Positions 2,974 to 40,028 of a stretch of DNA of 40,093 bases are shown one piece after another. Numbering within the stretch: the stretch's first letter is position 1; the number at the start of each line of letters is the position of its first letter. The notes under the pieces were generated by a model. It was not told where the DNA came from and did not search any database. It saw nothing but the letters and a program-made list of their open reading frames with translations. The translations under genes and the position numbers were made by a program. The DNA is taken from positions 1 through 40,093 of the IMG/VR virus record IMGVR_UViG_3300028573_000031; one strand, given 5' to 3'. Source of the stretch: a virus.

Positions 2974-4989
2974 TTGAAAAATAATTCGCCGATTTTTTGG
3001 CCAGAAGACAGCCTAAATCTATCTCTACGCCAAGGAATGGAAAAGAACTATTCTGATAGCATTAATATTCTTCAAACGCAATGGTATCAAGCCGATATAA
3101 ATCAACGTTTTACTATCAATGATCAGGAAGTTTGGGGATTAATCTTCCCCGGGGTCGCGACATATCGTAGGAAGATATGGAACTTCAACATCATGAACCC
3201 CATATCAGAAGCTATAAGCGGTCAGCAAAGACAGACAAGAAAAAGCTCGGCTGTTATTCCTATTCATGACGGTATGCAAAAGACGGCGGACCAGCTAACT
3301 AAGTGTCTTTACCACAATCATAAAAATGGATTCCATCAAACATTTAGCGATGCATTTCAATTAGGGGCTATCATCCAGGGCCTAGGCTTCATGTACATGT
3401 ATGGCGATAGTACAAAAGATCCGGTGAGCCCTGAGCCAAAATGGCGATATGTAGATATGAAATCTTGCCTTTTTGACCCCTATTTCCGTAAGCACGATAT
3501 GAGCGATGCAAGGTTTTGGTGGGTAAGGACTTTCTTCGATGCCAATGAAGCTGCTCTTATGTACCCGCAATTCGGGGATGAAATCTTATCTTTACCAAAA
3601 GGAACATATCGAGATGATAAATTTTACTACATGCCTGAAGTATATCAAATACAGTTTCCGAACCTTATTGCTTTCGACGAGTATTGGTATCTTACTAGCC
3701 GCGAAGCTACTTTTCTCGTGGATAAAAAGACTGAGGAATGCCAAGAGTTCAAAGGGACGCCCGAACAGCTAAAAGAGGTGATGCAAGCATTTAAAGGAAA
3801 GCTTGCAGTACTAAAAAAACAAGTTCCTACAGTGCGAAGAAGTATCATTTTAAATGACCGCGTGATTGTCGATGAACCTAACCCCTATTCCATGGATCGC
3901 TACCCAGTCGTGCCGCTGCTCGCATTCTTTACAGCAGATACTCCGTACTACGCGTACAAGTTTAATAGTCCGATGACTATGCTTCGTGATTGTCAATTCC
4001 TATTAAATAGATTAAAAGTTTCCAATCTTGAAATCCTTGACGCCCAACAACAAGGGATTAAAGTTAAGAAAGGGGCACTTGTTACCCCAGACGATGCCTT
4101 AAACTCAGGTCATGGAAGAGTGTTAACAATTGATCCGGACGCAAGCATGGATGACGTACAACCGATGCCTATCGTTCCTCCATCGCCTGTTATGCTTCAA
4201 ATGGAAGAGATGCTGAAGGGTATCTTCTTCAACATTGCAGGGATTGATCCTAACGCAATGGGTATGGATATTGACGATAAGGCCGGAATTATCACGATGA
4301 TGCGCCAGGCGGCAACAGCTCGTAATCTTCAAAGGCTTTTTGATCAAGCTGATGAATCTCAAAAGCTATGCGCTGAGATTGAAATCGAATACATACAAAA
4401 GAACTGGACTTATGGAAAAGTCCGACAAGTTATTGGTGAAGAGCCAACAGCCGAGTTTGATAGCAAGATTTTCTTTAAGTATGGTTGCAAGGTCGTGCAA
4501 GCCGCTCTTACTGAAAGTCAACAACAATTAGAGCTCGCTCAGCTGTTACATTTCCAGACCCTCTATCCTGATTTAACGCCACCGGATGAAATCCTCGAGT
4601 GTTTGACCATACAAAACAAAGACAGAATCATCGAAAAAGTTATGGCTTCTCAGAAGGCTCAGCAGGAACAGAAACAGAAGATGGAAGAGTTACAGATGCA
4701 GCAAATGCAAATTGACAACATGACAAAAGTAGCTTACGCCCATAGTCAAGAAGGGCTAGCTAAAGAGCGCGTGGCTAAAATCCAAACGGATGCAGCAGTT
4801 GCTCAAGACAAGCTCCGTCGAGCTCATCAAGAGGATACGGCAAGCTTGCTTAATGTCGTCAAGGCGCTTAAAGAGCTTAAAGGTATGGATTTAGACCATT
4901 TGATGCAACAGGTCGAAATCCTTAACTCTTTAAGCCCTGCTGCAAATCCTGAAAAGGAAGTGGTTGCAAATAATCAAAATGTTGCATGA
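2974..4989 (+). CDS. portal protein (P22 type)
   Basis: 671 residues, near the length of P22 gp1. Portal rings form the DNA channel at one capsid vertex and dock the terminase. Visible signs are the N-terminal SEAISGQQRQTRKSS region followed by AFQLGAIIQGLGFMYMYGD and YVDMKSCLFDP, typical of P22-like portals. The clip/stem region comes in the middle, and a long Gln-rich helical tail (roughly 535-650) compares with the P22 barrel. The start is TTG at 2974, with AGAGGAG at 2959-2965 as ribosome binding site; no ATG fits as well. It heads the canonical order portal, small proteins, scaffold, capsid. Confidence 0.88.
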   Translation: MKNNSPIFWPEDSLNLSLRQGMEKNYSDSINILQTQWYQADINQRFTINDQEVWGLIFPGVATYRRKIWNFNIMNPISEAISGQQRQTRKSSAVIPIHDGMQKTADQLTKCLYHNHKNGFHQTFSDAFQLGAIIQGLGFMYMYGDSTKDPVSPEPKWRYVDMKSCLFDPYFRKHDMSDARFWWVRTFFDANEAALMYPQFGDEILSLPKGTYRDDKFYYMPEVYQIQFPNLIAFDEYWYLTSREATFLVDKKTEECQEFKGTPEQLKEVMQAFKGKLAVLKKQVPTVRRSIILNDRVIVDEPNPYSMDRYPVVPLLAFFTADTPYYAYKFNSPMTMLRDCQFLLNRLKVSNLEILDAQQQGIKVKKGALVTPDDALNSGHGRVLTIDPDASMDDVQPMPIVPPSPVMLQMEEMLKGIFFNIAGIDPNAMGMDIDDKAGIITMMRQAATARNLQRLFDQADESQKLCAEIEIEYIQKNWTYGKVRQVIGEEPTAEFDSKIFFKYGCKVVQAALTESQQQLELAQLLHFQTLYPDLTPPDEILECLTIQNKDRIIEKVMASQKAQQEQKQKMEELQMQQMQIDNMTKVAYAHSQEGLAKERVAKIQTDAAVAQDKLRRAHQEDTASLLNVVKALKELKGMDLDHLMQQVEILNSLSPAANPEKEVVANNQNVA

Positions 4990-37613: not shown

Positions 37614-38444
37614 ATGTTAAATGGCTTGGATTTATTTAGCGGAATCGGTGGAATCAGTCTCGCCCTTAGAGATTACGTTAGACCCATCGCCTATTGCGAA
37701 ATCGACCCTTATTGTCAAGGAGTATTGTTGTCTAGAATGGCATGTGGGGAATTACAAACCTCTCCAATTTGGGATGACGTGCAAACACTCGGAAAAGACT
37801 CAGGGTCATTTCCTATTAATAGCATCGATATTATCTACGGTGGCTTTCCATGCCAGGATATCAGCATTGCAGGACTTGGAAAAGGCTTGGAAGGAGAGCG
37901 CAGCGGACTGTTTTTCGAGATCATTCGCTTGGCCAAAGAAATCAAGCCCAAGTTCATATTCCTTGAAAACGTCCCGGCAATCTCAACAAGAGGGGGACTT
38001 CAAGTTGTTAATGAATTTACCACGATGGGGTATGATTGTCGATGGTGTACTATATCCGCTGCGTCCGTTGGAGCGCTCCACAAAAGAGATCGTTGGTTCT
38101 TATTGGCCCACCCCGCAATCGAGAGCGCAATCAGATACGCCGAGCGAACGGAGAAGGAATACGCCTTGTCTACATTCCTCTGTACTCTTAGCAACCCCAA
38201 CCGCAAGCCAAGGATCGAAGCCGATACGAGCGCCGAGTCCGAGCAGAGTGAAGGGGAAACACGGCGAGGATTTACAGGACAGTATTGGCCGTTTGAATCC
38301 CGAAAGCATTGGCAAAAGGCTGTCAGTGGAGTTTGTAGAACTTCTGATGGGGTATCGTTCCATGTGGACAGACTTAGAGGACTCGGCAACTCAGTATGTC
38401 CTCAACAAGCGAAAAAAGCGTTCGAAATCTTAATGGGATTATAA
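37614..38444 (+). CDS. C5-cytosine DNA methyltransferase
   Basis: 276 residues. Motif I DLFSGIGG (6-13), motif IV GGFPCQDIS with catalytic Cys80, motif VI LENVP (Glu118), motif VIII-like HKRDRWF (156-162), and motif X LGNSVCPQQA near the end. The target recognition region between about 165 and 240 is short and hydrophilic. It probably methylates phage DNA to escape host restriction; no partner restriction enzyme is nearby. Nearly the whole gene is also open in the +1 frame (next entry). It follows TerL by 6 nt. Confidence 0.88.
   Translation: MLNGLDLFSGIGGISLALRDYVRPIAYCEIDPYCQGVLLSRMACGELQTSPIWDDVQTLGKDSGSFPINSIDIIYGGFPCQDISIAGLGKGLEGERSGLFFEIIRLAKEIKPKFIFLENVPAISTRGGLQVVNEFTTMGYDCRWCTISAASVGALHKRDRWFLLAHPAIESAIRYAERTEKEYALSTFLCTLSNPNRKPRIEADTSAESEQSEGETRRGFTGQYWPFESRKHWQKAVSGVCRTSDGVSFHVDRLRGLGNSVCPQQAKKAFEILMGL
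37621..38433 (+). CDS. overlapping +1-frame protein within the methyltransferase gene
   Basis: 270 residues from ATG 37621, open over almost the entire methyltransferase gene. The sequence is not random: SSYSLKT (111-117), LPRWGMIVDGVLYPL (133-147), GSYWPTP (159-165), LATPTAS (190-196), LNPE (225) and VEFVELLMGYRSMWTDLEDSATQ in two parts at 236-258. The combination SLKT ... PRWGM..G ... WPTP.A ... LNP..VE.LMG...GWTDL is one I recognise from phage proteins annotated as methyltransferase-associated. Its function is unknown. Whether it is translated here, separately or by frameshift, cannot be decided by eye. Confidence 0.5.
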   Translation: MAWIYLAESVESVSPLEITLDPSPIAKSTLIVKEYCCLEWHVGNYKPLQFGMTCKHSEKTQGHFLLIASILSTVAFHARISALQDLEKAWKESAADCFSRSFAWPKKSSPSSYSLKTSRQSQQEGDFKLLMNLPRWGMIVDGVLYPLRPLERSTKEIVGSYWPTPQSRAQSDTPSERRRNTPCLHSSVLLATPTASQGSKPIRAPSPSRVKGKHGEDLQDSIGRLNPESIGKRLSVEFVELLMGYRSMWTDLEDSATQYVLNKRKKRSKS

Positions 38445-38446
38445 AT

Positions 38447-38527
38447 ATGATGGATACTGAAAATGATAGACCTAAATATTGTGGTCATGATGAAAGTAAA
38501 GGTTGGATTACTCCAGGAAGCGTTTAG
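38447..38527 (+). CDS. possible 26-aa ORF
   Basis: ATG at 38447 (a second ATG follows) directly after the methyltransferase stop reads 26 residues (MMDTENDRPKYCGHDESKG...) to TAG. There is no clear ribosome binding site. It may be a tiny coupled gene or a remnant. Confidence 0.28.
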   Translation: MMDTENDRPKYCGHDESKGWITPGSV

Positions 38528-38532
38528 ATATT

Positions 38533-38997
38533 ATGGATAAAGAGCATGAAGAAATATTAGAGGAAATTTTAAAAAGCGCAGAACATTTGGGATGTTTAAA
38601 ATGTGCAATTTGGGACGAGGCTGCCAAAGGATTTGGCAAGAGGGGTATGTGCGAAAAATGTTTCAATGAAAGGTATGATTTAGATTCACAAGACCTGATT
38701 AATGATGGGAAGGTCATTCATAGTGATCAACCAGAAAACAATTTAAATACAGTAATTCCAGAAAAAATAATTAAAAGTTTTGACAGTAAATTATTATCAG
38801 TTCCTACTTCCGATTGTGTTTTGAATTTGTTTGAGTCTTTATCACAAATTCCAAAAAGCCCCGATCAATTAATGAGATTTACTCGTCCTTCGAGGGAAGA
38901 GAGAATCAGGTGGGTTACTGAATATGTAAATAGACTTAAAGCTGATTTGAGAGTAGCATTGGAAGACTTGGAGAAAATTGAAGATGAAGATAAGTAA
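38533..38997 (+). CDS. hypothetical protein with CxxC pairs
   Basis: 154 residues from ATG 38533 (TTG 38503 in frame is an alternative). An acidic helix is followed by CLKC (about 25) and GMCEKCF (about 40), probably one zinc site. Then a linker and a C-terminal helical part (SREERIRWVTEYVNRLKADLRVALEDLEKI) follow. No family recognised. Confidence 0.58.
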   Translation: MDKEHEEILEEILKSAEHLGCLKCAIWDEAAKGFGKRGMCEKCFNERYDLDSQDLINDGKVIHSDQPENNLNTVIPEKIIKSFDSKLLSVPTSDCVLNLFESLSQIPKSPDQLMRFTRPSREERIRWVTEYVNRLKADLRVALEDLEKIEDEDK

Positions 38998-39352: not shown

Positions 39353-39616
39353 TTGAATAAAGAAAAACCCGATACATGCTTTTCTTGTGGAATCAAAAAC
39401 AAAAGAGTAGAAGCTCAAGGGATTTGGTATTGTCCAAATGCTCTATGCCAAGGATGTGGGGGTGCCTGGTTTAGAGCTACTTTGGAAAGTTATAAAGAAT
39501 GCTGTGGAAATGGAAGGCATACAGTTGATGAAGTAGAATGGCTGACAAAAGGGATTATACGTAATAAAGAAAATAAGATTAAAATAACTTATTTTCATAG
39601 GAGTAAAAATGAATAA
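39353..39616 (+). CDS. zinc-ribbon hypothetical protein (TTG start)
   Basis: 87 residues from TTG at 39353, directly after the previous stop, with GGAGGA 6 nt upstream. CFSCGIKN (9), YCPNALCQGCG (26-36) and ECCGNG (49) give at least two Cys pairs. Likely zinc ribbon. It overlaps the next gene by 8 nt. Confidence 0.62.
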   Translation: MNKEKPDTCFSCGIKNKRVEAQGIWYCPNALCQGCGGAWFRATLESYKECCGNGRHTVDEVEWLTKGIIRNKENKIKITYFHRSKNE

Positions 39617-40028
39617 AGAAAAATTAATGATTGAGAAAAATCTAAAAGAAGATTACGTAAACGCACGAAAAAATGAATTTATATATAGACCTCCAGGTGG
39701 GGAGCCTGTTTGTCATCAATCAACGCTAGGTGTCAAATTCTCGAATGAAGTGCGTTTTCTAGACCCTTGGGGATTTATGTTAATAGGCAGGACAAGATGG
39801 CAACGCTTTCTATTTAAACTTAGACATCCGATCGCCTATTCGCACCGATGGCTTTTTAGAACTTATTACAGGGTGAGAAGGTTGTTTATCAATGATCGTT
39901 CACTTAATACTAAGATTGCAAAAGGAAAGCATGACTTTCCAATTAGCAATAAAAGTACTGAACATCCCGATAAAGATTTGCTTGAAAAAATAACGTATGG
40001 ATATGATAATGTTTATTTTGGTGAGTAA
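39609..40028 (+). CDS. hypothetical basic protein
   Basis: 139 residues. The centre is Arg/Trp/Phe-rich (RTRWQRFLFKLRHPIAYSHRWLFRTYYRVRRLF), suggesting nucleic-acid or membrane-surface binding. No family recognised. It begins MNKEK like the preceding gene, which may reflect duplication of the translation start region only. Confidence 0.6.
   Translation: MNKEKLMIEKNLKEDYVNARKNEFIYRPPGGEPVCHQSTLGVKFSNEVRFLDPWGFMLIGRTRWQRFLFKLRHPIAYSHRWLFRTYYRVRRLFINDRSLNTKIAKGKHDFPISNKSTEHPDKDLLEKITYGYDNVYFGE

Follow-up and report, generated by a model that had tools for sequence, protein, structure and literature searches.

An overlapping +1 reading frame in a phage cytosine-C5 methyltransferase gene probably encodes a second subunit with the target-recognition region and motif IX

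Does a long +1 reading frame that stays open through almost the whole of a phage DNA methyltransferase gene encode a protein, and how would that protein relate to the enzyme with which it shares its bases? The question is raised by a gene in IMG/VR virus record IMGVR_UViG_3300028573_000031, whose positions 1 to 40,093 make up the window, the whole 40,093-nt stretch of DNA that was analyzed. It is, to our knowledge, rare for two long, conserved, functional proteins to be encoded on the same strand with almost complete overlap. The original prediction, made from the letters of the DNA, placed two ORFs at this site, and both are found there, each with an ATG start (Table 1); we refer to the frame 0 product as alpha and to the +1 product as beta. 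The string of short motifs that had been read in the +1 ORF is also present (SLKTS, PRWGM, WPTP, TPTAS, LNP, LMGY, and WTDL). The terminase large subunit gene lies directly upstream, two ORFs downstream (38503-38997 and 39609-40028) gave no match in a PHROG search, and no restriction enzyme was recognized in the upstream gene or in these two ORFs.

Table 1. Features of the overlapping alpha and beta reading frames, in window positions
Feature	Position	Strand	Description
alpha	37614-38444	+	276 aa, ATG start, stop included in span; C5 methyltransferase with motifs I-VIII and X
beta	37621-38433	+	+1 frame relative to alpha, 270 aa, ATG start; putative target-recognition region and motif IX
Paired start codons, ATGttaaATG	37614-37623	+	alpha ATG at 37614, beta ATG at 37621
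alpha motif IV, Pro-Cys-Gln with catalytic cysteine, residues 79-81	37848-37856	+	PCQ invariant in 56 alpha proteins
alpha motif VI, Glu-Asn-Val, residues 118-120	37965-37973	+	Glu-118 and Asn-119 invariant in 56 alpha proteins
Target-recognition region, beta-dominant	38118-38321	+	alpha residues 169-236 are poorly conserved filler, with conservation of about zero
Motif IX, beta residues 228-253, ESIGKRLSVEFVELLMGYRSMWTDLE	38302-38379	+	beta frame; assigned with hhalign
alpha motif X, RLRGLGNSVCPQQAKK, residues 253-268	38370-38417	+	frame 0; Gly-258 and Asn-259 invariant

Alpha has the features of a catalytic chain. It matches Pfam PF00145 (E = 2.5e-37) and PHROG 363 (E = 1e-62), C5 methyltransferase motifs I, IV (PCQ), VI (ENV), VIII, and X are all present, and a Foldseek search with its AlphaFold model returned M.HhaI (6e-14) and M.HaeIII (2e-13) as the closest solved relatives. 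The expectation that alpha would carry all core motifs holds for motifs I-VIII and X but fails for motif IX, which an HMM search detected in 0 of 85 alpha proteins, in agreement with a motif scan. The model has a pLDDT above 90 across most of motifs I-VIII and X and below 50 at residues 184-224, where beta dominates; as modeled, the frame 0 reading of the recognition region is disordered.

Relatives were gathered with alpha peptides, so that the collection is free of bias towards beta, and in nearly all of them the +1 frame is open and beta-like, down to 33-38% alpha identity. Such an ORF might be an untranslated by-product of codon bias and conserved methyltransferase motifs, and pieces of the motif string do derive in part from alpha motifs shifted by one base (FLENVP gives SLKTS and GYDCRW gives G.M..G, and motif VI read one base over yields the beta string LKTS). 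We obtained the expected number of stops by permuting synonymous codons within each alpha gene, which preserves the alpha protein and its codon usage. Among 95 distinct viral relatives, the +1 frame inside alpha has a mean of 1.06 stops, a count that includes stops just outside beta, against 6.84 expected, whereas the +2 frame shows no depletion (16.8 observed versus 14.5 expected). The codon shuffles thus rule out a chance ORF, and the long dual coding put forward in the original prediction is real and under selection. Examined column by column, +1 residue conservation is well above the level that shifted alpha motifs predict, and in motif IX, where alpha shows no conservation, the +1 columns reach z values of about 5-10. 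Shifted methyltransferase motifs account for part of the string, and beta as a mere artefact of them is ruled out by the same columns. The by-product reading is refuted statistically, and we give it next to no probability.

Stops were also counted by region. In group 1b (56 sequences), no stop interrupts the +1 frame between the alpha start and the end of motif IX, where about 323 would be expected (0 versus 71 from the alpha start to motif III, 0 versus 146 across motifs IV-VIII, 0 versus 53 in the recognition region, and 0 versus 54 in motif IX). In the window-like group 1a, 17 stops precede motif IV, where 88 would be expected, and none follows it; some members have a later beta start and a product of only about 155-171 aa. 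The second start is conserved as well, with a spacing from the alpha start to the beta ATG that in most relatives is either 4 nt (RTGAATG or TTGAATG) or 7 nt (ATGTTAAATG), the window copy being of the 7-nt type, ATGTTAAATG. A stop codon in the beta frame stands directly 5' of the beta ATG in most relatives, a TAA in the case of the window, and both starts could share one ribosome-binding region.

Selection in both frames, which the original prediction had proposed to follow across homologues, was assessed from the shares of substitutions falling on alpha codon positions 1/2/3 in 26 independent pairs, alpha position 1 being the wobble position of beta. The shares were 0.29/0.14/0.56 over motifs I-III and 0.31/0.16/0.53 over motifs IV-VIII, compared with 0.24/0.20/0.55 in flanking genes. 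Across the recognition region they were 0.49/0.27/0.24 and across motif IX 0.55/0.20/0.25, and at motif X they were 0.26/0.20/0.55. Because the wobble-position shares swap, frame 0 gives way to +1 as the dominant frame after motif VIII and regains dominance at motif X, and residue conservation concurs, with alpha at about zero between 170 and 242 and beta peaking at 243-257. By substitution pattern, the constrained frame is 0 in motifs I-VIII, +1 in the recognition region and motif IX, and 0 again in motif X, so that constraint alternates between the frames along one gene. Beta residues 75-165 (37843-38115), which lie over alpha motifs IV-VIII, contain the elements W, P, WGM..G..Y, T.E, and WPTP; they are conserved far beyond the level that alpha imposes and perhaps form an alpha-beta interface.

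What beta might be is less apparent from database searches. The homologue search of the +1 frame returned PHROG 1008, labeled 'DNA methyltransferase', which is the beta family itself, together with relatives in annotated phages and plasmids. No fitting family was found for beta in Pfam, NCBIfam, or PADLOC (only weak single matches), and a sequence search of the PDB gave no match. An AlphaFold model of beta alone has a mean pLDDT of 60 and is confident only at about residues 200-240, and a fold search with this low-confidence model gave no match. Poor confidence of this sort is to be expected if beta folds only in contact with alpha, although a shallow alignment would have the same effect.

The C-terminal part of beta, with the consensus LxPxxVExLMGYxxxWTDL, is more informative. 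Using hhalign, the beta family profile aligns with the segment RLNPDWVEWLMGYPISWTD of a Candidatus Megaera C5 methyltransferase (96.9% probability, E = 1.4e-10). In phmmer that segment, RLNPDWVEWLMGYPISWTD, aligns with M.HhaI KLHPRECARVMGYPDSY, and an alignment of motif X follows (GNAVV/GNSVV); the local PDB score of this alignment is weak (4.8 bits), with the register and both motifs concordant. On the basis of these two alignments, we assign the beta C terminus as motif IX. The motif IX HMM, which was built from relatives with motif IX in frame 0 and had detected no alpha protein, matches 72 of the 85 beta proteins and 0 of 85 +2 translations, and a motif X HMM matches alpha only (11 of 85 at a strict cut-off). 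The family consensus for motif IX (LNPTW, MGWP) is more canonical than the version in the window (LSVEF, MGYR). When 189 loci, to which some contigs contribute two, were scanned for motifs, motif IX was placed in frame 0 in 28, all with the +1 frame closed between motifs IV and X, and in +1 in 134, with the +1 frame open in 126 of these; in none was it present in both frames.

We consider it very probable, judging from these sequence comparisons, that the locus encodes one two-subunit C5 DNA methyltransferase akin to M.EcoHK31I, with beta completing alpha. Alpha would provide the SAM-binding and catalytic core with motifs I-VIII, plus motif X. Beta would be translated independently from the second ATG, 7 nt beyond the alpha start, and would bring the target-recognition region and motif IX; on binding to alpha it would complete the small domain, and the assembled pair would methylate DNA. 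The functional link between the two frames that the original prediction suggested is supported, beta holding the motif missing from alpha, although a second subunit of the same enzyme describes beta better than the accessory or restriction-modification factor then named. By analogy with other phage methyltransferases, the role of the pair would most likely be to shield phage DNA from host restriction.

A second arrangement, with frame 0 carrying motif IX as well as motif X, is found at 28 loci, of which 26 are viral contigs and two are Candidatus Megaera plasmids. The recognition region of these group 2 loci is still +1-constrained (shares 0.60/0.21/0.19), and their +1 ORF is shorter (124-253 aa), starting about 32 codons past PCQ and ending before motif IX. 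Stops are depleted only within this internal ORF (3 versus 104 and 0 versus 57 expected), with no depletion before or after it. These loci bear on a different explanation, that a single chain is made through two programmed frameshifts, one into +1 past motif VIII and one into frame 0 again ahead of motif X, with the +1 frame as an internal segment. The relay of constraint over the recognition region and motif IX would look identical in that case, but a double frameshift needs no open +1 frame far upstream of the recognition region, where group 1b has 0 stops against 71 and 146 expected, and the group 2 depletion starts at the start of the internal +1 ORF (3 versus 104), not earlier. Moreover, the second start is conserved, and M.EcoHK31I is reported as two polypeptides (PMC3404938). 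Because the second arrangement preserves an open +1 frame ahead of the recognition region, a separately started beta is favored, and we regard the double frameshift as highly improbable. With the two-subunit reading extended to both arrangements, we lean towards a large and nearly unannotated class of phage C5 methyltransferases in which the recognition region is supplied in trans, always from the +1 frame of the catalytic gene, in at least two layouts (beta with the recognition region and motif IX, or beta with the recognition region alone and alpha with motifs IX and X). If this is so, sequence specificity would reside wholly in the overlapping partner.

Relatives of beta are widespread. They occur in annotated phages of Acinetobacter, Pseudomonas, Salmonella, Klebsiella, Vibrio, and Synechococcus and in those of Microcystis, Mycobacterium, Gordonia, Paenibacillus, and Lacticaseibacillus, Salmonella phage S9-5 and Paenibacillus phage Redbud being isolates with the alpha/beta pair; plasmid matches include Acinetobacter, Leptospira, Paenibacillus, and Bacteroides. 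Confirmed loci in viral contigs number at least 596 for relatives of the Megaera alpha and at least 589 for relatives of the window alpha, and the overlap recurs in hundreds of phage genomes; a first genome scan with beta found one bacterial contig only. Most records list alpha only, as does the E. coli PT62 prophage, which has the pair with alpha alone annotated. In all 262 beta/alpha pairs with overlapping best domains, beta is in the +1 frame of a C5 methyltransferase, and the 21 pairs with non-overlapping best domains are also in +1 of the same gene. No beta without alpha was seen among the examined loci, which rules out an independent phage protein with its own gene elsewhere. The motif string had been ascribed to a separate phage protein group, and that ascription does not stand: beta is always in the +1 frame of a C5 methyltransferase, and the group in question, PHROG 1008, is the beta family. 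Beta might still be an independent accessory protein, such as an anti-restriction factor, nuclease, or regulator, overprinted on the methyltransferase, as its lack of a structural match and the conservation in their own right of its residues over motifs IV-VIII would allow. Its possession of the motif IX that alpha lacks, its constant company with alpha, and the absence of any fitting Pfam, NCBIfam, or PADLOC family argue against this, and we think it very unlikely.

The system to which we liken the two-subunit enzyme, the bacterial methyltransferase M.EcoHK31I, has the recognition sequence YGGCCR and a relative in M.EaeI. In the work of Lee et al. in 1995, its small chain is said to have about 176 aa and to be nested in the large-chain gene in another frame, with both chains reportedly required for activity. 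The nesting reported for this type case has its counterpart here, where beta lies inside the alpha gene and always in +1. The two polypeptides of M.EcoHK31I divide the C5 methyltransferase motifs between them, I-VIII and X on the large chain and IX on the small one, and the recognition region is predicted to be in the large chain (PMC3404938). Alpha likewise has motifs I-VIII and X without IX, and beta carries motif IX (by hhalign, and in 72 of 85 beta proteins). Unlike M.EcoHK31I, for which the large-chain assignment is a prediction, the locus has its recognition-region constraint in the beta frame; beta in the window and in most relatives spans almost all of alpha, starting 4-7 nt after it; the pair is spread over many phages, whereas M.EcoHK31I belongs to one restriction-modification system; and the second arrangement keeps motif IX in alpha. 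We call the window pair a variant of the M.EcoHK31I kind by its features, not by sequence alignment, and not a proven homologue. The wide spread in phages, prophages, and some plasmids, the near-complete overlap, and the paired starts go beyond that precedent, as does the recognition region, which appears from its substitution pattern to be in beta.

Other known systems share single features with the locus. M.AquI combines a catalytic chain with a second chain that has part of the variable region and motif IX, as here, but its motif X is also on the small chain, and a nested +1 layout is not described for it in that account (PMC3404938). In Paenibacillus phage Redbud (KP296794), g51 is a 234-aa +1 ORF inside g50, a DNA-cytosine methyltransferase, and ends in LNPDWVECLMGFPIGWTD; its record calls it 'hypothetical protein, g50 internal gene' and assigns it no function, in contrast to the role proposed here. 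These annotators recorded the nested ORF of this locus (1924-2976 and 2108-2812). The ShiLan element, a hidden HNH endonuclease in a phage methylase, is similar in its out-of-frame coding within such a gene, but it is a mobile insertion encoding a nuclease, neither a subunit nor conserved family-wide (PMC11855218). A literature search found no phage-wide overlap of this kind, which is weak evidence, as subscription papers were mostly outside its scope.

If the locus does encode a two-subunit enzyme, automatic annotation overlooks a subunit that the enzyme requires in many phages, prophages, and plasmids. Recoding a cloned 'DNA cytosine methyltransferase' of this family would then leave it inactive or lead to its being misjudged, and methylome predictions for the family would be similarly affected. 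A two-chain enzyme whose dominant frame alternates along one gene would also be a good test case for the origin of overlapping genes, by frame displacement of a recognition domain, and for the dual use of starts 4-7 nt apart.

Two further features were observed in alpha. Five distinct relatives (L005, 3985-4050; L006, 4171-4240; L027, 3985-4050; L031, 3985-4050; and L046, 4028-4090) have an in-frame TGA plus one codon inserted at the identical place inside motif IV, GGFP-TGA-(C/A)CA-CQD, with the beta frame uninterrupted; alpha may be dead in these relatives or split once more, or the TGA may be recoded. In four of these relatives (L005, at 3475-3957, L027, L031, and L046), a domain resembling an HNH endonuclease is inserted in frame in alpha, between residues about 61 and 67-71, and may be compared with the ShiLan element (PMC11855218).
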